A program made the position numbers and the translations under genes. The notes beneath the pieces are model-generated. The model did no database searches, was not told the origin of the DNA, and saw only the letters and a program-made list of their open reading frames with translations. Shown here piece by piece: positions 23,857-41,250 of a DNA stretch of 64,000 nt. Every line of letters starts with the position of its first letter. The stretch's first letter is position 1. The DNA comes from Treponema sp. (GTDB taxonomy: Bacteria; Spirochaetota; Spirochaetia; Treponematales; Breznakiellaceae): assembly GCA_031265845.1 (NCBI GenBank), contig JAISCC010000105.1, positions 1-64,000 of the forward strand, in the 5' to 3' direction.

Positions 23857-24045
23857 ATATAATTCCATGTGTGTTATCCTTGTTTGTTCATTGGTTCAAC
23901 GCAATGTAAACATGTCCTAGTCAAAAAACCTGCGCGACAGGAAAAGCCCGATGGAGCAAACCTTTTCGGGATATTCTCCGTCAATTCAGATCATGTGTGA
24001 GGCAAGCCCGGCAGCAATCTTGCATGGAATGCCCCAAGACGCGCT

Positions 24046-25665
24046 TCAACATTCGGCAATAATTGAGCGCAGCTTGAGTATGCGCGAGGGTTCTACTGAA
24101 AGCTCGTCCATTTCCATCTCTACAAACGCTTTCGTCAAGCTGTAGTCCCCTCCTAAACCGCCGCAGACGCCGCACCAGATGCCCGCCTTGTGAGCGTTTT
24201 CGCAGGCAAGCCGAATAAGCCGCAGTATCGCTTCATGGCGGGTGTCACAAAATGAGGAGAGCGAATCGTTCTGCCGGTCTATCGCAAGCGTGTACTGAGT
24301 CAGATCGTTTGTGCCTATGCTGAAAAAGGCGGCTTCTTTTGCCAATACATCGCTTATAACTGCCGAAGCGGGCGTCTCCACCATAATTCCTATGGGAACA
24401 TCAGCCTTAAACGCTATGCCCTTGGACGCAAGCTCCTCGCGGGCGCTTTTAGCCATCTCTTTCGCCCTCACCAACTCTTCCAGCGAGTTTATCATGGGAA
24501 ACATGATGGACGCATTCCCGTAGATCGAGGCGCGGTAGATCGCCCGCAATTGGGTCTTGAACAGATCTGGACGGGTAAGGCAGATGCGGATAGCCCGCAT
24601 ACCTAACGCGGGGTTTTCTTCCTCAGGCAGCTTAAAGTAATCCGCCTGTTTGTCAGCCCCTATGTCAAGCGTACGGATGATGACCTGCCTGCCCCCCATC
24701 TTTTCAAGCGCCTTCCGATAACTTTCGTACTGGGTATCCTCATCCGGGTAATCGTTTCTGCCCAAATAGAGAAATTCACTGCGGAAAAGCCCTATGCCTT
24801 CCGCGTCTCCGGCAAGAGCGGCGTCAGCGTCGCTCACTGACCCTATGTTGGCGTAGAGCTTCAGGGGGCGTCCGTCTTTCGTGAGGGTCGGTTTGCCCCG
24901 CCTCTTTTCAAGGTTTTCCTTTTCCCTGCGTTGCCGCTCTTCTTTTTCCTCCAGTTTCTTGAGTATTTCAGGATCAGGGTCAATGTACAAAACGCCAGTC
25001 TCGCCATCAACCGCCGCTTGCTTGCCGGACAAATCGCCGGACAGAAACGCGCCGAAAGATATGACTGCGGGAATGCCCATAGTTCGCGCGAAAATAGCCG
25101 TGTGGGAATTGGCGGCGCCGTGACGGGACACCAAGGCAAGCGTTGCGTTGCGGTCAAGCTGGGCGGTTTCGCTTGGCGTAAAGTCATCGGCGGCAAGAAT
25201 GACCGGCCCGCCGTTCTCTCCAAGACTCTGATCCTCGCCTGAGAGTATCCGTATCACCCGCTTGGACACATCGTAGACATCTATGGCGCGGGCTTTCATG
25301 TACTCGTCGTCCATGTCGGCGAAGTCCTGCGCCAGACAGGAGCCTGCGGTATTGACCGCGTACTCGGCGCAGACTTTCTCGGATGTGATAATGTCGAGTA
25401 TAGGGTCGGTGTAATCAGTGTCTTCGAGCATCATGCGGTGTATCTCGAAGAGCAGCGCGTTTTCCTTTCCGATTTTATCGGTCATTGTACCGGCTAACTG
25501 GTCAAGCTGCTCCGCCGCTGTTGCGCGAGCGGCATGAAAGCGTTCGGTTTCTAATTCAACATTGTCTATAGCGCGTTTTTCAACGGAAAGGCTTTTCCGT
25601 TTGAGAAAGGAAAGGCGTCCCCTCGCTATGCCTCCGCTTACGCCCTTGCCTTGCAGTGTGATCAT
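24046..25665 (-). CDS. ptsI: PTS enzyme I (PEP-protein phosphotransferase)
   Basis: General PTS enzyme that takes phosphate from PEP and passes it to HPr. It is 539 aa from MITLQGKGVSGGIARG, an ATG overlapping the upstream dehydrogenase stop (ATGA); the track's extra 24 residues are not coding. The swivelling-domain histidine lies in GAANSHTAIFARTMGIPAV, the PEP-domain shows GIGLFRSEFLYL and the catalytic Cys in IWCGVCGGLGGD. Length is slightly short of the ~570 usual. It is the last gene of a minus-strand operon that also encodes an HPr, EIIA and EIICB, so the whole phosphorelay is encoded together. Confidence 0.95.
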   Translation of the reverse strand: MITLQGKGVSGGIARGRLSFLKRKSLSVEKRAIDNVELETERFHAARATAAEQLDQLAGTMTDKIGKENALLFEIHRMMLEDTDYTDPILDIITSEKVCAEYAVNTAGSCLAQDFADMDDEYMKARAIDVYDVSKRVIRILSGEDQSLGENGGPVILAADDFTPSETAQLDRNATLALVSRHGAANSHTAIFARTMGIPAVISFGAFLSGDLSGKQAAVDGETGVLYIDPDPEILKKLEEKEERQRREKENLEKRRGKPTLTKDGRPLKLYANIGSVSDADAALAGDAEGIGLFRSEFLYLGRNDYPDEDTQYESYRKALEKMGGRQVIIRTLDIGADKQADYFKLPEEENPALGMRAIRICLTRPDLFKTQLRAIYRASIYGNASIMFPMINSLEELVRAKEMAKSAREELASKGIAFKADVPIGIMVETPASAVISDVLAKEAAFFSIGTNDLTQYTLAIDRQNDSLSSFCDTRHEAILRLIRLACENAHKAGIWCGVCGGLGGDYSLTKAFVEMEMDELSVEPSRILKLRSIIAEC

Positions 25666-26933
25666 GACGCCGCTCCATAGGCTTTGAGAAGCAACGATTC
25701 CGCCTCCGCGTTCCACAAACCCTGATGAGCTTGGCAACTTGCGTGAAGCTGCGCGAACAGACTGTCGTTTTGTCCGAGCTTTTCAAAGTCGGCCAAGGCG
25801 GTCAGCGGCAGGTTAATGTGGGTATACGTGAGTATCTTGCCCGCCCTCAGTTCCGGCAGTTTCGCCACCGCCTCGGCAACCGCGTCTAGCCCGCAAATAT
25901 GCGTCACCATAACCGCCGGACGCATCTTCTTTTCAGAGGCTAAAGCGAGCGCTTCCTTAAGGTCTTCGGTATTGCCGCCGGTGCTTCCTAAAATATGGGC
26001 GCTGGTGTAATGGCAGTTGTACAGGTTCATCATCGCCGAAAAGTTCTTGTCCTGGGGTCCGGCGAAAAAGTTAAGGCAACCGTCAAATGCCAGAAGCTTG
26101 TCGCCCAACTCGGCGAGTTCCTGTATGGGCGCATAGACAAACACATCGTCATAGCCTTGTCCGCCGGAGATGTCCATAAGAAGCGCGTACTGGTCCGCGT
26201 GGCGGCTGGGATTTACGTAGCGCAGTTCAACGCCTCGCTTTTGCGCCAGTTCCGGGCTGACAAGCTGCTCAGCCCGCCGCAGTCTTCCTTCGTCCACATC
26301 GGTAACAACGATTCGCGCCGGGCGGTTGCCGCCATAAAGCGGGTACTCAACCGCGCCCAGCCCCATGGGCCCCGCGCCGCCGAGGATCAGCGCATTGCCG
26401 CCGGGCTTGATGTCCATGGCGTGTTGGTAGTTCTGCTTGTTGGTGTGGTACATCATATGATAGCCGCCGATGATGCAACTGACCGGCTCCGCAAGCGAAG
26501 CGTAAAAATAGGCGTCCCCGTCGTAGTGGAGCAGGCAGCCCAGTTCCATGACCTCATGCGGCAGGATGCAGTAGGTGGCGTCCCCGCCGAAAAACTCGTA
26601 GGAGTAGCCGGGGGAGGCGAGGCTGCCCTTGTAGTTCAGCGCCGGCTGCTGGGCGAATTTTTCGCCGGCTTTGAATTCGTTCTGCCATTGGGCGCCGACT
26701 TTGACAATATCGCCGGCAAACTCATGCCCAATGATGATGGGGTTGGTGGCTACGTTTTGAGGGCAGCGTTTGTGGTTCTTCCCCTGTTTCAATAGTTTGT
26801 AGGTTGACATGCAGATGCTGTCGCTCACCACTTTGACCAGGATTTCATCGTCTTGTATGTCGGGAAGTTCAAATTCTTCCAGCCTTAAATCATCAGCGCC
26901 GTAAAGCCGCGCCGCTTTTGTCTTCTGTCCCAT
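25662..26933 (-). CDS. Zinc-type sugar(-alcohol)-phosphate dehydrogenase, SorE-like
   Basis: Medium-chain dehydrogenase/reductase, 423 aa. The N-terminal part has DSICMSTYKLLKQGKNHKRC and NPIIIGHEFAGDIVKVG (the GHE zinc-site motif); the Rossmann fold follows with ALILGGAGPMGLGAVEY. The pattern resembles L-sorbose-1-phosphate reductase (SorE) proteins found in PTS operons, which oxidise or reduce the carbon next to the phosphate. Here it lies between a 1-phosphofructokinase-like gene and ptsI, with 1-4 bp overlaps on the ptsI side and 52 bp to fruK. I infer that it oxidises the phosphorylated hexitol brought in by the EIICB. A plain sorbitol dehydrogenase role is the alternative. Confidence 0.7.
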   Translation of the reverse strand: MGQKTKAARLYGADDLRLEEFELPDIQDDEILVKVVSDSICMSTYKLLKQGKNHKRCPQNVATNPIIIGHEFAGDIVKVGAQWQNEFKAGEKFAQQPALNYKGSLASPGYSYEFFGGDATYCILPHEVMELGCLLHYDGDAYFYASLAEPVSCIIGGYHMMYHTNKQNYQHAMDIKPGGNALILGGAGPMGLGAVEYPLYGGNRPARIVVTDVDEGRLRRAEQLVSPELAQKRGVELRYVNPSRHADQYALLMDISGGQGYDDVFVYAPIQELAELGDKLLAFDGCLNFFAGPQDKNFSAMMNLYNCHYTSAHILGSTGGNTEDLKEALALASEKKMRPAVMVTHICGLDAVAEAVAKLPELRAGKILTYTHINLPLTALADFEKLGQNDSLFAQLHASCQAHQGLWNAEAESLLLKAYGAAS

Positions 26934-26985
26934 ATAATTTCTCCTTGTGTGTGGATTTGCAGGAACCTTGTACCCGCAGGGTTCC

Positions 26986-27936
26986 TTACGCGGTTTTCTC
27001 TATCCGCGTTTTTTGTAAAAGCTCGTCTACCAGAGCGCGATCAGGCGGGTTGGTTCCCGCTGTCGCGCAGGCTCCGGCTGAGGCTGCCATTGCCAGGGCA
27101 AAGCGCTGTTCCTCGGGCATTCCTTGCTCAAAGCCGTATGCCAGTGCGCCTGCCATGCTGTCCCCTGCGCCCACTGTTGAGCATACTTCCACCGGAATTG
27201 CCGCAGCCCGCCAGACGCCGTTTTCGCTTGCAAAGATAGCGCCTTCGCGGCCCATTGAAAGAGCGACCAGCTTAACGCCTTTGTCAATCAAAGAGTGGCA
27301 AAGTTCCGCAAGCCGCGCCTCTGTCACCCGCTCATCATCCGGTATGCCGAAATAATGCAGCAATTCAAAACGGTTGGGCTTGATGTAATCGGGAATCGAA
27401 TCCGGCTCCAACTGGAGCGCCTGTTTAAGGGCTTCGCCGTCCGCGTCAAGAAACACAACAGCGCCGGCGCGGCGCAACAGAACGCACAGGCGTTTGTAGG
27501 CGTCTGCGCCGGGACCCGCCGGAAGGCTGCCTGAAAGCGCGACGGTATTTCCCGGTACGCCGTAAAAGGAAAGTTTGTTTTCCATTTCGCGCCATTCCGT
27601 TGGTTTTATCTCCGGCCCGGGTTCGTTCAATTCGGTTAAAGCGCCGTCCTTGTCCACCACTTTCACATTGGTTCTGGTAAGGGCGGCGATGCGGACAAAA
27701 TCGGCTTTGATTCCTTTTTGAGCAATGCGGGACAAGAGTTCTTCTCCGGCGCCGCCTCCGGCAAATCCAACGGCAACGCTTGCGCCGCCCAAGGCGCGGA
27801 TCATCGCCGAAACATTGACCCCTTTTCCACCGGCGTCCACTTGAACATCCCGCAAACGATTAAGCGCGTTAGGCCGCATCACATCCACACGGGCAGTCTT
27901 GTCCAGCGCGGGATTCAGCGTTACGGTGATTATCAC
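26986..27936 (-). CDS. fruK: 1-phosphofructokinase-like PfkB kinase
   Basis: Ribokinase-family sugar kinase, 316 aa, closest in pattern to FruK, which makes fructose-1,6-bisphosphate from fructose-1-phosphate. Visible landmarks are ITVTLNPALDKTARVD at the start, DAGGKGVNVSAMIRALGG (PfkB signature 1), IKPNRFEL, and the catalytic STVGAGDSMAGALAYG (signature 2; Asp is the base). The start is a GTG that overlaps the EIIA stop (GTGA). LacC-type tagatose-6-phosphate kinases share the same motifs and cannot be excluded. Its presence next to a mannitol-type transporter, with no mannitol-1-phosphate 5-dehydrogenase in the operon, is unusual. Confidence 0.82.
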   Translation of the reverse strand: MIITVTLNPALDKTARVDVMRPNALNRLRDVQVDAGGKGVNVSAMIRALGGASVAVGFAGGGAGEELLSRIAQKGIKADFVRIAALTRTNVKVVDKDGALTELNEPGPEIKPTEWREMENKLSFYGVPGNTVALSGSLPAGPGADAYKRLCVLLRRAGAVVFLDADGEALKQALQLEPDSIPDYIKPNRFELLHYFGIPDDERVTEARLAELCHSLIDKGVKLVALSMGREGAIFASENGVWRAAAIPVEVCSTVGAGDSMAGALAYGFEQGMPEEQRFALAMAASAGACATAGTNPPDRALVDELLQKTRIEKTA

Positions 27937-28373
27937 GTCTTCCCTCCGGTTAACATCCGGTACACCTCGTCAACGCCAGCGTTTTTGACAAGGTTTATCG
28001 TATCTTCCCCGGTTTCCAGGTTGTCCACGATATTCCCCATGATGTCCAGGTGTTCGTCTCCTTTCGCCGCAATGCCGATCACCAGGTACACCGGATTTCC
28101 GTGCCAATCTACGCCTTCAGGATAGGCCAGCGCCACAATGCCGGTTGTGATGATGTCTTTTTTGTACGCTTCCTCTCCGTGGGGAATGGCGATAAAATTG
28201 CCTATTCCGGTGCTGAAGGAATTGTCCCGTTTGATCATGCCTTCGATATAGGTTTCGTTGGCATAGCCTGAATCAACCAGCATACGTCCGCAACGGCGTA
28301 TAACGTCTTCGCGTTCCGCCTTTGGTTGATTTAAAATGATATTTTCTTTCTTGAGCATGGGTATATCCGCCAT
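27933..28373 (-). CDS. PTS EIIA component, fructose/mannitol type
   Basis: A 146-aa EIIA of the PTS_EIIA_2 family. The phosphorylated histidine is in FIAIPHGEEAYKKD, and the family segment MIKRDNSFSTGIGNFIAIPHG is complete. The start MADIPMLKKENI has AAAGGAG upstream; the 43-residue extension in the track reads into the regulator gene. It accepts phosphate from HPr and passes it to the EIIB domain of the MtlA-like protein at 30835-32244, which lacks its own EIIA domain. Confidence 0.9.
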   Translation of the reverse strand: MADIPMLKKENIILNQPKAEREDVIRRCGRMLVDSGYANETYIEGMIKRDNSFSTGIGNFIAIPHGEEAYKKDIITTGIVALAYPEGVDWHGNPVYLVIGIAAKGDEHLDIMGNIVDNLETGEDTINLVKNAGVDEVYRMLTGGKT

Positions 28374-28383
28374 GACAGCTCCT

Positions 28384-30450
28384 TTATGGTAGTGTCCCGC
28401 CTCCGAAACGGGCGAGGATTTCTGTAATTTCTCTTTCAAGAACCGCCCGTATGGTCTCTTGGTTTCCGGCGCGAACCGCCTCAAGAAAAAGAGGCAGATC
28501 AATCAAGGCGCTGGAAATCCCTCCCATTAATTCGCTCACTTCATGAGGCGACGTTTCGGGCAACAACATAAGCGCACAACTTTTTGTATGCTTAAAATAC
28601 GGTTGGGTGAATTTTCCTCCTTCGGGAACAATGACCGCAAACACCGGCGCCGCGTTGCAGGCGCTGCGGATATGCAACAGTACTATTCCCAGTTCGCTGA
28701 CAATCTGGGTGACAATGGACTCCCTGTCCATAAGGGCGCTACGGACAGACTCTGGATTTTCAGGCGCAAAGCGGGCTGCGGCGAAATGGACAAGCTCCTC
28801 AAAGGAGCAGTCCGCTTTGATCGGTTCAACGGCGAAATTGTCAAGCAAGAGCCGCGACTGCATGAAAATCTCAATAAGGCTGTCAAGCCGCTTCTCTAGG
28901 GAAACCGGACGCGCCGGTTGTTCCGCATCCCGCTTGATAAAGGCGAAGGCGTCGACAGCCGTCTGAATTTTCTGATAATCTTCCGCCCCAAGCAGCGTAT
29001 TCACCTGAACAAATGGCTTGTCTGTTTCCGTTAAAGGGATGGTTGAGACAAGAAAATCAACGTCAGCCCATGAAGCCTTGTCATCACAGCCGGACACCTC
29101 GACTTCCAATTCCCCCTTGAACCGCTTGCGCACCTGATACGCCAGCATATAGGACGCGCCGATGCCGGACACACAAACAATGCCTGCCCGAAGAACCCGC
29201 CGCCTGATATTCCGCTCGCCCAAAACGGCAAGAGCTGCCAAGAAATGTATCAGGATGAACGAAATTTCATTTGATGGAACAGGAATCCCAAGACGCTCCT
29301 CAAGAACTTTCACCGCCCTGCGCGTCTTTTCATATTCTTTAGGATAATTTTTTATAAGTTCCTCTTCAAGGGGATTCGGCAGCGCTATGCCTCCCTGCAA
29401 TCTGAGCAGCGCGGCTTCCAGATGCAATGACAAGAGCCGCGTCAACTGCTCATTAGTCTTCAAGATAGCCGCTATCGGGGGATCAAAGCGGTCTATCATC
29501 CGCATGGCAAGGCTTTGGATGAGCGTACGCCTGTCCACCGGACTCGGCTCAAGCGGGCTGTCCTGTTTTGATCGGCACGCCTGAATCCATCCGGCAAGCG
29601 CCTGCCGTTCCGTTTCAGGTACGGGTAGGGAGAATTCGTGTTCCATTTCCGCCGTGATATCTTCGGCAAGGGCGTTTTGGAACGCGCCCATTGAAACATG
29701 CCCGCTGACGCGGCTATTTGTGGCGATCCTGCTCTTTCGCAAACGGTCAACCATCACCATAAGGTAAACGGCGATCAGCGAGAAAGATTCTGCGGTCATC
29801 CAGTCAATCGCATCCTTCTTTCTCCGTAGAATTTCCCGTACGCCCATCTCAATGTCCTCGCCAGGAAAATCAAAGGACGCGGTGTATGACCTGCCGCCCG
29901 AATCTCCGTCTATCATAAAGCGGCTCACCAGAGCGGCGCGAAGAGCTTCCTCGGTTCCAACGCACTGAACGCCCATGCCGCTTTTGCGGGTGACGCTGAC
30001 GCCTCGCACAGAAAGCCAGTCTTCAAGCTCGTCAAGATCGTTGCTTACCGTGGATTCGCTTACACCAAGAACGCTTGCGTAGTAAAACAGTTTTTGCACT
30101 TCGCCGGCATTGGCGATGATCTCTACCAGCAGGCGGAGCAACCGCTCCCGTTTTGAAATAGGATGGGGGGGGGGGGGGGTAAGAACCTCAAGCATTCTCT
30201 GACGGGATTCGCTATCGCCGGAAAGGGTCAATCCTTTGCCCGGAATGGAAAGCAGGGCCGTGTGAAAGGCGGACAGCGCCTCATCCGCGCTTTCCAGTTC
30301 CCGAAAGACGGTCCGGCGGCTTGTGTTCAACGCCGCCGACAAGTCGTCGATCTTCACCGGCTCATCAGAACGCGCCAACAGTTCAAGCAACCGCACCAAT
30401 CTGGGAGAAAGATTCCGCACAGGATTAGACGCCACAACCGTTTCTTCCAT
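28384..30450 (-). CDS. MtlR-like PTS-regulated transcription activator
   Basis: A 688-aa regulator of the MtlR/LicR type. In order: a DeoR-like winged helix (residues ~12-60, LSAALNTSRRTVFRELE), a linker with Pro92-95, a second HTH (~100-150, LGVSESTVSNDLDELE), two PTS regulation domains (~190-400), an EIIB-like domain with Cys in IVCVSGIGASYMLAYQV, and an EIIA-like domain (~545-680) with its histidine in GIVLLHIRS. Such proteins read the phosphorylation state of the PTS and activate their own operon. The Pro codons are made by an uninterrupted run of 15 C residues on the coding strand (30165-30179 as G), so a one-base change would truncate the protein after its first HTH. It lies inside the operon, between HPr and EIIA. 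Confidence 0.9.
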   Translation of the reverse strand: MEETVVASNPVRNLSPRLVRLLELLARSDEPVKIDDLSAALNTSRRTVFRELESADEALSAFHTALLSIPGKGLTLSGDSESRQRMLEVLTPPPPHPISKRERLLRLLVEIIANAGEVQKLFYYASVLGVSESTVSNDLDELEDWLSVRGVSVTRKSGMGVQCVGTEEALRAALVSRFMIDGDSGGRSYTASFDFPGEDIEMGVREILRRKKDAIDWMTAESFSLIAVYLMVMVDRLRKSRIATNSRVSGHVSMGAFQNALAEDITAEMEHEFSLPVPETERQALAGWIQACRSKQDSPLEPSPVDRRTLIQSLAMRMIDRFDPPIAAILKTNEQLTRLLSLHLEAALLRLQGGIALPNPLEEELIKNYPKEYEKTRRAVKVLEERLGIPVPSNEISFILIHFLAALAVLGERNIRRRVLRAGIVCVSGIGASYMLAYQVRKRFKGELEVEVSGCDDKASWADVDFLVSTIPLTETDKPFVQVNTLLGAEDYQKIQTAVDAFAFIKRDAEQPARPVSLEKRLDSLIEIFMQSRLLLDNFAVEPIKADCSFEELVHFAAARFAPENPESVRSALMDRESIVTQIVSELGIVLLHIRSACNAAPVFAVIVPEGGKFTQPYFKHTKSCALMLLPETSPHEVSELMGGISSALIDLPLFLEAVRAGNQETIRAVLEREITEILARFGGGTLP
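30165..30179. repeat. 15-base G/C homopolymer inside the regulator gene
   Basis: Fifteen consecutive G residues on the plus strand, encoding the last two bases of Thr91, Pro92-95 and the first base of His96 on the minus strand. The gene is in frame at 15. Tracts of this length are slippage-prone in bacteria. Confidence 0.9.
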
Positions 30451-30469
30451 AAATCCCTTAAAGATTCAC

Positions 30470-30727
30470 CTAAAGGTTCGCCGTTAGAAAACCCCGCGCC
30501 GCTTCAATGGCCGCAGTTTCGTCTTCGCCTTCCGCTTGCACCGTGAACGTCTGTCCGCATTTGAGGCGCAGCTTCATCAAGGCGATGAGCTTCTTGGCGT
30601 CCGCGCTTTGATCGCCGCGATTCACCATAACGCGGCTTTTGTATTCCTGCATTTTCTGTACAAGTTGTCCTGCGGGTCTCGCGTGAATGCCGTTTGGATC
30701 GGTAATCGTATACGAAAATTCCTGCAT
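30470..30727 (-). CDS. ptsH: HPr phosphocarrier protein
   Basis: An 85-aa HPr, the small protein that carries phosphate from enzyme I to EIIA. The active-site histidine is in NGIHARPAG. The regulatory serine-46 region reads KKLIALMKL, with Lys where Firmicutes HPr has Ser46, so control by HPr kinase at this residue looks impossible. The start MQEFSYTITD is chosen because AAGGAG lies about 7 bases upstream; the earlier MHM and the 28-residue extension in the track are too close to or upstream of this site. It lies between mtlA and the regulator, a dedicated HPr for this operon. Confidence 0.93.
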   Translation of the reverse strand: MQEFSYTITDPNGIHARPAGQLVQKMQEYKSRVMVNRGDQSADAKKLIALMKLRLKCGQTFTVQAEGEDETAAIEAARGFLTANL

Positions 30728-30834
30728 GTGCATCTCCTTATTCAAAGATGTCTGGCGCCGACCGTTTGACGCGCCGGAAGACGCCCCTTCCGGCGCACCG
30801 TCAGACATCACCGCGTCCGCTTCGTGCGCGGCGG

Positions 30835-32244
30835 TTATTTCTTCAAGGCCGCGACAATTCCATCATATTCCGGCGCGCCAAGAAAATCTGTGATCGTTAC
30901 AAGGCGGGCTTTCGGGTTCGCGTTTCGCGCCCGTTCCTGCAATTCCTTGTGGCAGATGATAATATCCGCGTCAGCAGGGACTTCGCTCACCGGCGAATGG
31001 ATGACGGTGACGCCTGTGACGCCCGCAGTCTGTATCTTTTTCCGCAGTTTGGTGGCTCCCATAGCGCTGGAACCCATGCCGGCGTCGCAGGCAAAGACAA
31101 TTTTCTTTACCGCCGCGTTAGCCGAAGCGCCAGCCGAAGCGTCCCATGCGGTTTTGGTCGCTTCTACGGAAACGCCTTTGGACTCAGCTTTGTTCACCCT
31201 GGTTTTTGCCTGCGCCGCTTCAAGATCAGCGTCATCCTTGCCGAATGCTTTGAGCAATATCATTGACAGGAGGAATGATACGCCGCCGCCTGCCAGTATG
31301 CCCAGGATGTTAGGAATATACGCGCCTCTAGGCGTCATCATAAGCTCGGCGAAAATGGAACCCGGTGAAGCCGGAGCGATGAGTCCGCCGCCGAATATGC
31401 TTAAAACCAGAACGCCGGTAAAACCGCCGCCCATCATGGCAAGAATCAGAATCGGATTCATCAGGACGTATGGGAAGTAAATTTCATGGATGCCGCCCAG
31501 GAAGTGAATGATCGCCGCGCCGGGAGCGCTGCTTTTGGCGTTGCCCTTTCCCACCAGGCAGTACGCCAGCAGAAGTCCAAGCCCGGGACCGGGATTTGAT
31601 TCAATCATGAAATAAATGGAGCGGCCTACCGCCTCCGCCTGCTGGGAGCCGAGGGGGGTGAACACGCCGTGGTTAATGGCGTTGTTCAAAAACAGGACTT
31701 TTGCGGGTTCTACAAGTATTGACGCAAAGGGAAGCAGCTTGTGATCCACCATCCAACCGACCCCGGCGCCGAGCGCGTTGGTTGCGGTCGCGGCGATGGG
31801 GCCTATGCCGAGGTAGCAGACAACTGAAAGTGTGCCGCCAATGATCCCTGCGGAAAAATTGTTCACCAGCATTTCAAAACCGGCCGGGATATGACTTTCT
31901 ATCATATCATCAAATTTCTTGATGCAGAAACCGCCCAGGGGTCCCGCAATCATGGCGCCCAGGAACATAGGAATGTCCGCCCCCATGATGACGCCGATAG
32001 TGGCGATTGAGCCGACTAAGCCGCCTCGCACGCCGCCGCCCGCCAGCTTGCCTCCGGTATAACCAATGAGGAGCGGCAGGAGATAGGTCAGCATGGGACC
32101 GACCATGGCTCCCAGCTTTTCATTGGGCAGCCAGCCCGTGGGAATGAATAATGTCGTAATAAGCCCCCATGCGATAAAAGCGCCTAAATTCGGCATAACC
32201 ATAGCGGAAAGCGACCGCCCCACTTTTTGTACCGTCTGTTTCAT
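30835..32244 (-). CDS. mtlA: PTS mannitol-type EIICB transporter
   Basis: A 469-aa membrane permease with EIIC (residues ~1-340, about eight hydrophobic segments) and EIIB (~375-469) domains. The EIIC carries NNAINHGVFTPLGS and the mannitol-family signature GGIHEIYFPYVLMNP; the EIIB phosphocysteine is in FACDAGMGSSAMGA. It imports a hexitol, most likely mannitol, as its phosphate. The EIIA is a separate protein encoded downstream. GGAGAG precedes the start, and it is the first gene of the minus-strand operon. Substrate assignment is by family pattern only; glucitol or another hexitol is possible. Confidence 0.92.
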   Translation of the reverse strand: MKQTVQKVGRSLSAMVMPNLGAFIAWGLITTLFIPTGWLPNEKLGAMVGPMLTYLLPLLIGYTGGKLAGGGVRGGLVGSIATIGVIMGADIPMFLGAMIAGPLGGFCIKKFDDMIESHIPAGFEMLVNNFSAGIIGGTLSVVCYLGIGPIAATATNALGAGVGWMVDHKLLPFASILVEPAKVLFLNNAINHGVFTPLGSQQAEAVGRSIYFMIESNPGPGLGLLLAYCLVGKGNAKSSAPGAAIIHFLGGIHEIYFPYVLMNPILILAMMGGGFTGVLVLSIFGGGLIAPASPGSIFAELMMTPRGAYIPNILGILAGGGVSFLLSMILLKAFGKDDADLEAAQAKTRVNKAESKGVSVEATKTAWDASAGASANAAVKKIVFACDAGMGSSAMGATKLRKKIQTAGVTGVTVIHSPVSEVPADADIIICHKELQERARNANPKARLVTITDFLGAPEYDGIVAALKK

Positions 32245-38816: not shown

Positions 38817-40154
38817 ATGGTTATTTTGACATTGAACTGCGGTTCGTCATCGGCGAAGTATCAGGTGTACGATTGGGACGCCAAGGATGTATTGGCTGTG
38901 GGCGTTGTGGAGAAGGTTACGTTTGACGGGTCTTTTATCGCGCATAAGGCGAAGGGCAAGGAGGAGTACACCCTCTATCAGGACTGCCCCACTCATACCG
39001 ACGCTGTGAACCTTATTATCAAGTTGCTGACCGATCCCGAACGCGGGGTCATTAATGATATGAGCGTTATCAAGGCGGTTGGACACCGGGTGTTGCATGG
39101 GGGCGACAAATTCACCAAGAGCGTGATCGTTGACGATGAGGCGATGAAGGCTTTTAACGAGGTGAAGGATTTGGGTCCGCTTCACAACCCGGCGAACATC
39201 ATGGGCATAGAGGCGGCGAAGAAGGTGTTGCCCGATGCGCCGCATTGCGCGATTATGGATACGGCGTGGCATCAAACCATGCCGGCTTCTTCTTTTATGT
39301 ATGCTGTGCCGTATGAATGGTACGAAAAGTACGGCGTACGGAAATACGGGTTCCACGGCACGAGTTTTCTGTACACGGCGAAACGGGCGTCCGTGCTGCT
39401 CGGCAGGAAGCCTTCCGGGACGAATCTTATCATCTGCCATATTGGGAACGGATCGTCCGTGTGCGCGGTTAAGGACGGCTGTTCTTTTGATACGAGCATG
39501 GGCGTCACGCCGCTTGAAGGTCTGGTGATGGGAACCCGATCCGGCGATGCGGATATGGCTATGCCGTTTTATGTGATGAGGAAAACCGGCATGAGCGCGG
39601 CGGAAATGGAGAGCGCTCTGAACAAGAAGTCCGGTCTTTTGGGCGTTACCGGCAAGTACAACGACCGCCGCGACATACAAAAGGCCGCCGAACAAGGCGA
39701 CGCGCGGGCGGCGCTGGCGCAGGATATGGAGGCGCGCCGCGTGAAGAAGTACATCGGCGCGTATATGGCGACGCTTGGACGGGTGGACGCTGTTGTACTT
39801 ACCGCAGGCGTGGGCGAATTCGCCAGCTTCATGCGCAAGAAATTCCTTGAAGGGCTTGAAGGATTGGGCATTGTCTACGATCCGGCGAAGAACGCCCTCG
39901 CCCATACGCGCAACGCCGAGACCCGCATCTCCGCGGATTCTTCGGCGATTCCCATCTTCATCATCCCGACCGATGAGGAACTCGTAATGACCGAGGACGC
40001 TTACGCGCTTATGGCGGGTACGTACGACGTTCATACGAAGTTCACCTATTCGTTCCAGAGCAAGGACTACATGAACAAGACCCGCGCTGAAGGGTTGAAA
40101 GAGGATTTGAAGAGACTGCCGGAACTGGAGAAAATTTTAGCGTTGCCTAAATAA
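38817..40154 (+). CDS. ackA: Acetate kinase
   Basis: Converts acetyl phosphate and ADP to acetate and ATP, the energy-yielding end of fermentation in treponemes, or the reverse in acetate activation. Landmarks are [19 protein letters not shown] (phosphate-binding start), [36 protein letters not shown] and [14 protein letters not shown]. At 445 aa it is longer than the ~400 typical of E. coli; the extra ~40 residues are a C-terminal tail ([17 protein letters not shown]), as in other spirochaetes. GGGGGAG precedes the ATG. No pta is adjacent. Confidence 0.95.
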
Positions 40155-40170
40155 GGCGCGGAGGCGCTTC

Positions 40171-41250
40171 ATGCTGAAACTACAAGTGAATGATGAAGAT
40201 AAAAAGCTGGAAATGCTCTGCGTCGGCAGAGCGCTTGTTGATATTTTTGTAAAAGTCAACAATGAGCAATTCAGGAAGATCGGTATAATCAAGTTGCGCC
40301 ACATCGAATATGAGAAGTTGCTTGGGATTCTCGGGCATTTTCCCGACAGCAATGTGGTTTCCGGCGGCGGAGCCGCGAATGTCGCCAAGGTCGCCGCTCT
40401 TCTTGGAATCCGCGCGGGGTATATAGGCGCGGTTGGTCCAGATGATGAGTTTGCGAAGGTTTTTGAGCGGGAAATGGAGTCCGCAGGCGTAACGCTTTTT
40501 TTGATAAAAGAGCGGAAGCCGACCGGCGCGTGCGTTTTCCTGCAACGCAAAGGCGAGCCTAACGTTATCGCCGCGTCTATTTCCGCAGCCGATCTTCTTA
40601 AGGCGAGCGACGTGAGGGAAGACGCGATTAAACAGGCGCGGATTGTGGTGATAGACGGCTATATTCTTAACCGGGAGGATCTGGTGAGCCGCATCCTTGA
40701 GCTTGCCTCCGAATACGGCACCGTGGTCGCCCTTGACGTTGGCTCGGTTGAGATGGCCGAGACGTACGCCCGGGACATCATGCGGTACTGCAAGGAGTAT
40801 CCGCTTCTGCTCTTTATGAATAAGGAAGAAGCGGGCGCCTTCTATTGGCGCATTAACGGCGAGCCAAGCGAAGAGGAGAAAGAACCCGTCGGCTTTATGG
40901 ATTGGCTTTTTACCCGCAGAAATCCATTGCCATCGAAAATGCAAGCCTTTTTCCAGAAACTCGCCGACGATTTATTTCCGGTTATTGTGGTGAAACTCGG
41001 CGCAAAAGGCGCGATGGTGTTCGCGGGCGGCAAGGTCCACCGCGAGGACACGCTTGCCGTTATTCCCAAGGAGACCACTGGCGCGGGCGACGCTTTTTGC
41101 GCCGCTTTCTTGAGCGCGTGGTTGCGCGACAAATCGTTCGGCGAGTGCGCCGGTTTCGGCAACAAAGCCGCCCGCGAGGTGCTTGATGTTGACGGCACGT
41201 TTGTAGACAGGAAGAAAATGTCCGGCATTGCGCGGCTCCTTGGCGGATGA
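40171..41250 (+). CDS. PfkB-family carbohydrate/nucleoside kinase
   Basis: A 359-aa ribokinase-superfamily kinase. It has the SGGGAANVAKVAALLG signature 1 region, YIGAVGPDDEFAKVF, VVIDGYILNREDL, and the catalytic ETTGAGDAFCAAFLSAW signature 2. The N-terminal LCVGRALVDIFVKV fits adenosine kinase/ribokinase-like members. A 15-residue lead precedes the first strand, and there is an insertion (INGEPSEEEKEPVGFMDW) before the C-terminal third. GGAGG lies six bases before the start. It follows ackA by 16 bp and is probably co-transcribed. The substrate cannot be named. Confidence 0.85.
   Translation: MLKLQVNDEDKKLEMLCVGRALVDIFVKVNNEQFRKIGIIKLRHIEYEKLLGILGHFPDSNVVSGGGAANVAKVAALLGIRAGYIGAVGPDDEFAKVFEREMESAGVTLFLIKERKPTGACVFLQRKGEPNVIAASISAADLLKASDVREDAIKQARIVVIDGYILNREDLVSRILELASEYGTVVALDVGSVEMAETYARDIMRYCKEYPLLLFMNKEEAGAFYWRINGEPSEEEKEPVGFMDWLFTRRNPLPSKMQAFFQKLADDLFPVIVVKLGAKGAMVFAGGKVHREDTLAVIPKETTGAGDAFCAAFLSAWLRDKSFGECAGFGNKAAREVLDVDGTFVDRKKMSGIARLLGG

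Follow-up and report, generated by a model that had tools for sequence, protein, structure and literature searches.

A mannitol phosphotransferase operon in Treponema predicted to run through fructose-1-phosphate

How can a bacterium use mannitol without MtlD, the enzyme that in textbook catabolism oxidises mannitol-1-phosphate to fructose-6-phosphate? The question is raised by a tight operon on the minus strand (positions 24046-32244) of a 64,000-nucleotide stretch of a Treponema genome, contig C158, which is referred to here as the window. The operon, which is convergent with rpoC, combines a mannitol-class phosphotransferase system (PTS) with a zinc dehydrogenase of the SorE/YggP type (hereafter DH) and a PfkB-family kinase. 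We estimate a probability of roughly 0.8 that it encodes an entire mannitol PTS, with a dedicated HPr and enzyme I (EI), running via fructose-1-phosphate to fructose-1,6-bisphosphate. Phosphate would pass from EI through HPr and EIIA to EIICB, and mannitol would enter as mannitol-1-phosphate. DH would oxidise this compound at C2, the carbon beside the phosphate, to fructose-1-phosphate, and the kinase, of the 1-phosphofructokinase (1-PFK) type, would then form fructose-1,6-bisphosphate, which would join glycolysis below the 6-phosphofructokinase step. Kinase and DH would jointly take the place of MtlD. Judged by the mannitol locus, the closest relatives are metagenome-assembled Treponema genomes, which we take to be those of termite-gut spirochaetes.

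Composition of the operon

The genes follow one another in the order mtlA (EIICB), HPr, mtlR, mtlF (EIIA), kinase, DH and EI, all on the minus strand, with intergenic distances of 107, 19, 10, −4, 52 and −4 nucleotides, the negative values denoting 4-nucleotide overlaps of EIIA with the kinase and of DH with EI. A first-pass annotation, made without database searches, had listed EIICB, EIIA, HPr, EI, a FruK-like kinase and a SorE-like dehydrogenase. Family profile matches confirm all six on this strand; the list omitted the regulator at 30450-28384, an MtlR-type protein of 688 amino acids with helix-turn-helix, PRD and EIIB-like domains (PF08279, PF00874 and PF02302).

The EIICB gene (30835-32244), upstream of whose ATG lies AAAGGAG, encodes an MtlA-type mannitol PTS protein of 469 amino acids that scores 668 bits against NF011663 and 500.6 bits against TIGR00851, above both curated MtlA cut-offs. 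In the alignment with E. coli MtlA, Cys386 of EIIB and the EIIC motif GGIHEIYFPYVLMNP are intact, and the two marks of MtlA membership, the EIIC motif GGIHE and the EIIB cysteine, are present. HPr (30470-30727; PF00381) carries its active histidine within GIHARPA, as seen in the alignment with E. coli HPr, and the EIIA of the mannitol/fructose class (27933-28373; PF00359, 1.4e-28) has the active site IPHG. EI (24046-25665; TIGR01417, 540.7 bits) contains the equivalents of His189, Arg296, Arg332, Glu431, Asn454, Asp455, Arg465 and Cys502 of E. coli EI, and the phosphorylation residues of EI, HPr, EIIA and EIIB are all intact. The system had been called self-contained, which is accurate in that it has its own HPr and EI, but a stand-alone EI (C133), an HPr (C26) and a fused HPr-EI (C51) are encoded elsewhere in the genome.

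As for MtlD, its gene, part of a classical mannitol PTS operon, is missing here, and DH, a zinc enzyme of the medium-chain dehydrogenase/reductase (MDR) type, stands outside the long-chain Mannitol_dh family (NF002646). A genome-wide check agreed: NF002646 gave no MtlD-family protein in the recovered genome (3.57 Mb, 94% complete) at E<=1e-25. Matches to the Mannitol_dh family were confined to C148 and C53, one being a protein of 493 amino acids whose gene precedes an altronate dehydratase-like gene and the other a protein of 554 amino acids whose gene comes after a mannonate dehydratase-like one; from their lengths and neighbours, we read both as UxaB-/UxuB-like proteins in uronate contexts. 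An MtlD elsewhere in this genome, which had been named beforehand as fatal to a fructose-1-phosphate route, was therefore rejected.

Two peculiarities of the general PTS proteins were observed. The operon EI and its close orthologues stop about 30 residues short of other EIs such as that of E. coli, with all catalytic residues kept. In HPr, lysine occupies the position of Ser46, and the serine is also missing in the orthologues at L003 (Lys) and L056 (Gln); because of this lysine, the operon HPr should, as predicted from its sequence, escape HprK-type serine phosphorylation. A terminator-like hairpin with a T run lies directly downstream of EI (23929-23941, minus strand). Terminator-like sites are no commoner in the region than in shuffled sequences, and this one is argued from its position; sites found in a promoter scan of the region were likewise no commoner than in shuffled sequence, and no promoter is claimed.

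Alternation of DH and MtlD across genomes

To place the operon in context, we searched 392 Spirochaetota genomes for DH, MtlD and MtlA and read the gene neighbourhoods. This revealed 29 MtlA genes, 17 of which adjoin DH and 10 MtlD, while none adjoins both; of the remaining two, one is truncated where its contig ends and the other lies beside a short-chain dehydrogenase. For 16 of the 17 DH-adjoining cases, no MtlD-family protein was detected anywhere in the genome at E<=1e-25. Of the 17 DH operons, 15 include a PfkB-family kinase, whereas all 10 MtlD operons lack one (Fisher p 8e-6, relatedness ignored), and the kinase profile found no match in the MtlD loci. Counted by genus, the proportions are 12/14 and 0/5, respectively. 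Because a fructose-6-phosphate product would need no kinase travelling with DH, this linkage suggests that the product of DH is unlike that of MtlD. A prediction that follows from this reading was checked in seven genomes with a kinase-less DH operon (G429, G563, G680, G463, G784, G276 and G260), all of which have a 1-PFK over the cut-off elsewhere, the match in G784 containing one stop codon.

The replacement can be seen most directly within the family. Locus L111 has the order mtlA-HPr-mtlR-mtlF-mtlD-EI and is collinear with the window operon except that mtlD stands where the window has kinase and DH. The EII of L111 is 74% identical to the window EII and nests beside it in the EII tree, and its genome yielded no 1-PFK at E<=1e-30. 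L112 and L100 provide a second contrast of this mtlD/DH type.

MtlD was found in none of 25 Lacrimispora genomes, 18 of which contain DH. The set mtlA-mtlR-mtlF-kinase-DH is present in 17 of them and reads intact in 15 (including L013); the one DH-bearing genome left out is G804, in which the contig ends inside the kinase. In G806, the stretch taken ends inside mtlA, and an extra 2.4 kb lies between mtlR and mtlF. G812 (L203) has the full set, with DH and mtlA each frame-broken by decay or sequencing error. L. saccharolytica WM1 (G797) is among the 17, and the type strain of this species, DSM 2544, forms acid from D-mannitol and none from sorbitol (PMC11316579). Taken together, the identity of the EII, the mtlD swap in L111 and the Lacrimispora phenotype strongly imply that mannitol is the substrate of the operon.

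Predicted reactions of DH and the kinase

DH (25662-26933; PF08240/PF00107) shares 45-48% of its residues with annotated SorE proteins and 49.6% with E. coli YggP. Full-length similarity near 50%, the zinc ligands and an insertion after the catalytic cysteine place it in the SorE/YggP family, and its catalytic ligands Cys41, His70, Glu71 and Glu149, of the sorbitol-dehydrogenase type, are invariant in 23 aligned sequences. It is not SorE proper, which is found in a sorbose operon with a mannose-class EII and SorD, whereas DH has a mannitol operon as its context; in the tree, SorE falls outside the window DH group. An aspartate that follows strand two of the nucleotide fold suggests NAD+ as cofactor. 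An AlphaFold2 model (predicted local distance difference test, pLDDT, 92) matched the general zinc alcohol/sorbitol dehydrogenase fold, with 4ej6 as the top structure (Z 35.8, root-mean-square deviation 2.3 Å over 326 residues), a match that does not discriminate substrate; a sequence search of the PDB found no close member of the DH family. Beside Cys41, a basic insertion (K46, H54-K55-R56) is common to DH, SorE and YggP and missing in GatD, an enzyme that acts on galactitol-1-phosphate at a carbon remote from the phosphate. Our guess is that this insertion may help to bind phosphate.

SorE interconverts L-sorbose-1-phosphate and D-glucitol-6-phosphate, reducing the former. Seen from the phosphate end, D-glucitol-6-phosphate and D-mannitol-1-phosphate share their configuration over the three carbons that follow and diverge only at the one beyond (C5). 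Since the two polyols match near the phosphate, a SorE-like hydride transfer on mannitol-1-phosphate would give D-fructose-1-phosphate, and DH is predicted to be a mannitol-1-phosphate 2-dehydrogenase.

Relatives of DH with about 50-57% identity also occur in other clusters (L017, L018, L020, L023, L026 and most of L062-L091), together with a bifunctional class II aldolase/short-chain dehydrogenase, a PHP-domain protein, a pyruvate-dehydrogenase-like E1-E2-E3 set and an FGGY kinase, and at L017 additionally with an L-rhamnose isomerase. These clusters look like an uncharacterised deoxysugar route that uses a 2-oxoacid-type dehydrogenase complex.

The kinase (26986-27936) exceeds the cut-off of the 1-PFK subfamily model TIGR03168 with 296 bits and reaches 286.6 bits against the 1-PFK equivalog model TIGR03828 (cut-off 292), which its orthologues pass in L003, the nearest (293.4), L011 (295.9) and L013 (325.1), with L056 below (291.4). 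It contains TRTNVK and TELN, as FruKs do and LacC and PfkB do not. The underlying patterns TRxNxK and TE(L/I/F)N, which are diagnostic by conservation only, were seen in fructose-operon FruKs and not in LacC or PfkB, the Deinococcus FruK departing from the first (TRVGIK). No other 1-PFK-subfamily kinase over the cut-off was found in the window genome, and the enzyme is predicted to be a fructose-1-phosphate 6-kinase. The kinases paired with DH belong to three 1-PFK lineages, namely the clade of the window kinase (Spirochaetota, Planctomycetota and Bacillota), a fruKA-type FruK in Oscillibacter L012 and an E. coli/Deinococcus-type FruK in L108; in L103, fruK is next door to the DH operon. A tagatose/galactitol route was rejected, as the operon contains no tagatose-bisphosphate aldolase and the LacC score is far under the cut-off. 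The window also holds an acetate kinase gene and, behind it, a further PfkB-family sugar kinase (40171-41250, within 38817-41250) outside the 1-PFK subfamily.

The fructose-1-phosphate route, already proposed in the first-pass annotation, thus gains comparative support from the mutual exclusion with MtlD, the kinase linkage, the mtlD swap and the recruited 1-PFKs, and on this basis we infer the C2 regiochemistry, the fructose-1-phosphate product and the action of the kinase upon it. Several observations weigh against it. Once shared ancestry is taken into account, only three to four DH/MtlD contrasts are independent, which is too small a number for significance: a phylogeny-aware sign test had three supported independent pairs, which pointed the expected way without reaching significance. 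Oscillibacter L012 has MtlD 4 kb from its DH operon, and the Lachnospiraceae loci L019 and L025 have both MtlD and DH. The DH family is not specific to mannitol, as its relatives in rhamnose-type clusters demonstrate, and the window kinase is 5 bits short of the equivalog cut-off. In six Spirochaetota operons the PfkB homologue is divergent and lacks the residues diagnostic of 1-PFK; L108, laid out in the same way, has a true FruK in that place. Finally, Treponema caldaria H1 (G194), which contains a variant of the operon, was reported not to use mannitol (PMC3739177), and the E. coli cmt locus is likewise called cryptic. At L019 and L025, we further observed hexulose-6-phosphate synthase/isomerase-like genes and EIIA together with MtlD and DH; the divergent PfkB proteins (L100, L102, L105, L106, L107 and L109) have lost the N-terminal aspartate of NPAxD and the GGKGxNV motif and kept the catalytic motif GxGD.

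The strongest competing explanation is that DH is a non-orthologous MtlD, oxidising mannitol-1-phosphate at C5 to fructose-6-phosphate, and that the kinase serves as a dedicated 6-phosphofructokinase of the PfkB type. GatD provides a precedent for a zinc MDR enzyme acting at the phosphate-remote carbon, E. coli PfkB belongs to the same kinase superfamily, and the shortfall of the window kinase would fit. Nevertheless, we regard this as improbable: the MtlD operons, which make fructose-6-phosphate, have no kinase, the DH-paired kinases are of 1-PFK lineages that include ordinary fructose-operon FruKs, the window kinase is far under the PfkB (126 bits, cut-off 353) and LacC (134 bits, cut-off 410) cut-offs, and DH resembles SorE/YggP rather than GatD.

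Somewhat less probable still is another hexitol such as D-glucitol as substrate, with the EII forming glucitol-6-phosphate, DH acting as SorE in reverse to give L-sorbose-1-phosphate and the kinase producing a bisphosphate. The mannitol scores of the window EII and its close similarity to an EII beside MtlD oppose this, as do the mannitol-positive, sorbitol-negative phenotype of L. saccharolytica and the fact that sorbose-1,6-bisphosphate is no usual aldolase substrate, even if glucitol-6-phosphate and sorbose-1-phosphate are the known SorE substrate pair and T. caldaria is mannitol-negative despite its variant operon. That the cluster is a chance or relic assembly, with the kinase serving fructose and DH something else, is very improbable despite the DH relatives in other pathways, given that mannitol EII, kinase and DH recur together in no fewer than six gene arrangements across four phyla (Spirochaetota, Planctomycetota, Bacillota and Tenericutes) and that translational overlaps and intact active sites are seen.

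Comparison with known systems

More broadly, we consider it likely, with less confidence than for the window operon itself, that a mannitol pathway via fructose-1-phosphate, in which a hitherto unassigned mannitol-1-phosphate 2-dehydrogenase is combined with a 1-PFK, is widespread among bacteria and that, across phyla, it and the MtlD pathway alternate. Besides the termite-gut spirochaete, a wide range of unrelated bacteria from guts and sediments appear to use this two-enzyme detour in place of MtlD. If true, the proposal would account for mannitol fermentation in bacteria that lack mtlD, Lacrimispora among them, and would correct the annotation, in many gut and termite bacteria, of genes at present labelled 'zinc-binding dehydrogenase' and '1-phosphofructokinase'. 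Moreover, fructose-1-phosphate would have a second origin besides fructose uptake; exogenous fructose has been described as its only documented source in E. coli (PMC11157272). In the open-access literature, we found neither a mannitol-1-phosphate 2-dehydrogenase nor a mannitol PTS route to fructose-1-phosphate. Breakdown of mannitol and sorbitol in Haloarcula ends in fructose-1-phosphate and 1-PFK, as proposed here, but proceeds by ATP-binding cassette (ABC) uptake, free fructose and ketohexokinase, without a PTS or mannitol-1-phosphate (PMC11519228).

The window operon shares its EII class, EIIA and mannitol-1-phosphate as the first intermediate with the classical mannitol PTS (E. coli mtlADR; MtlA, MtlF, MtlR and MtlD). 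It differs in having DH and a 1-PFK, with fructose-1-phosphate as the probable intermediate, instead of MtlD and fructose-6-phosphate, and in having its own HPr and EI. This dedicated general PTS pair, singled out in the first-pass annotation, is present but not new in kind: the fructose PTS operon of Eubacterium eligens (L052; fruK-fruA-ptsH-ptsI, compare fruBKA) likewise combines a 1-PFK with a dedicated HPr and EI. In contrast to the window, fructose is there taken up directly as fructose-1-phosphate, and no dehydrogenase is present. The L-sorbose operon of Klebsiella (L044) shares the chemistry beside the phosphate, through a SorE of the same family as DH, whereas its EII is of the mannose class and SorE is a ketose-phosphate reductase that feeds SorD and fructose-6-phosphate.

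The remaining parallel is the cryptic cmtBA-yggP locus of E. coli (L043), in which a mannitol-class EII adjoins YggP. Unlike the window operon, it has no PfkB kinase, HPr or EI and instead contains glpX, fumE and yggC; at L043 (7124-12478), a class II fructose-bisphosphatase, fumE and yggC follow cmtBA-yggP. The literature searched yielded no function for YggP. As part of the broader proposal, this locus may be a relic of the pathway and a hidden source of fructose-1-phosphate, the effector of Cra, and could feed Cra if YggP makes this compound. The proposed route makes the E. coli enzyme YggP directly testable.

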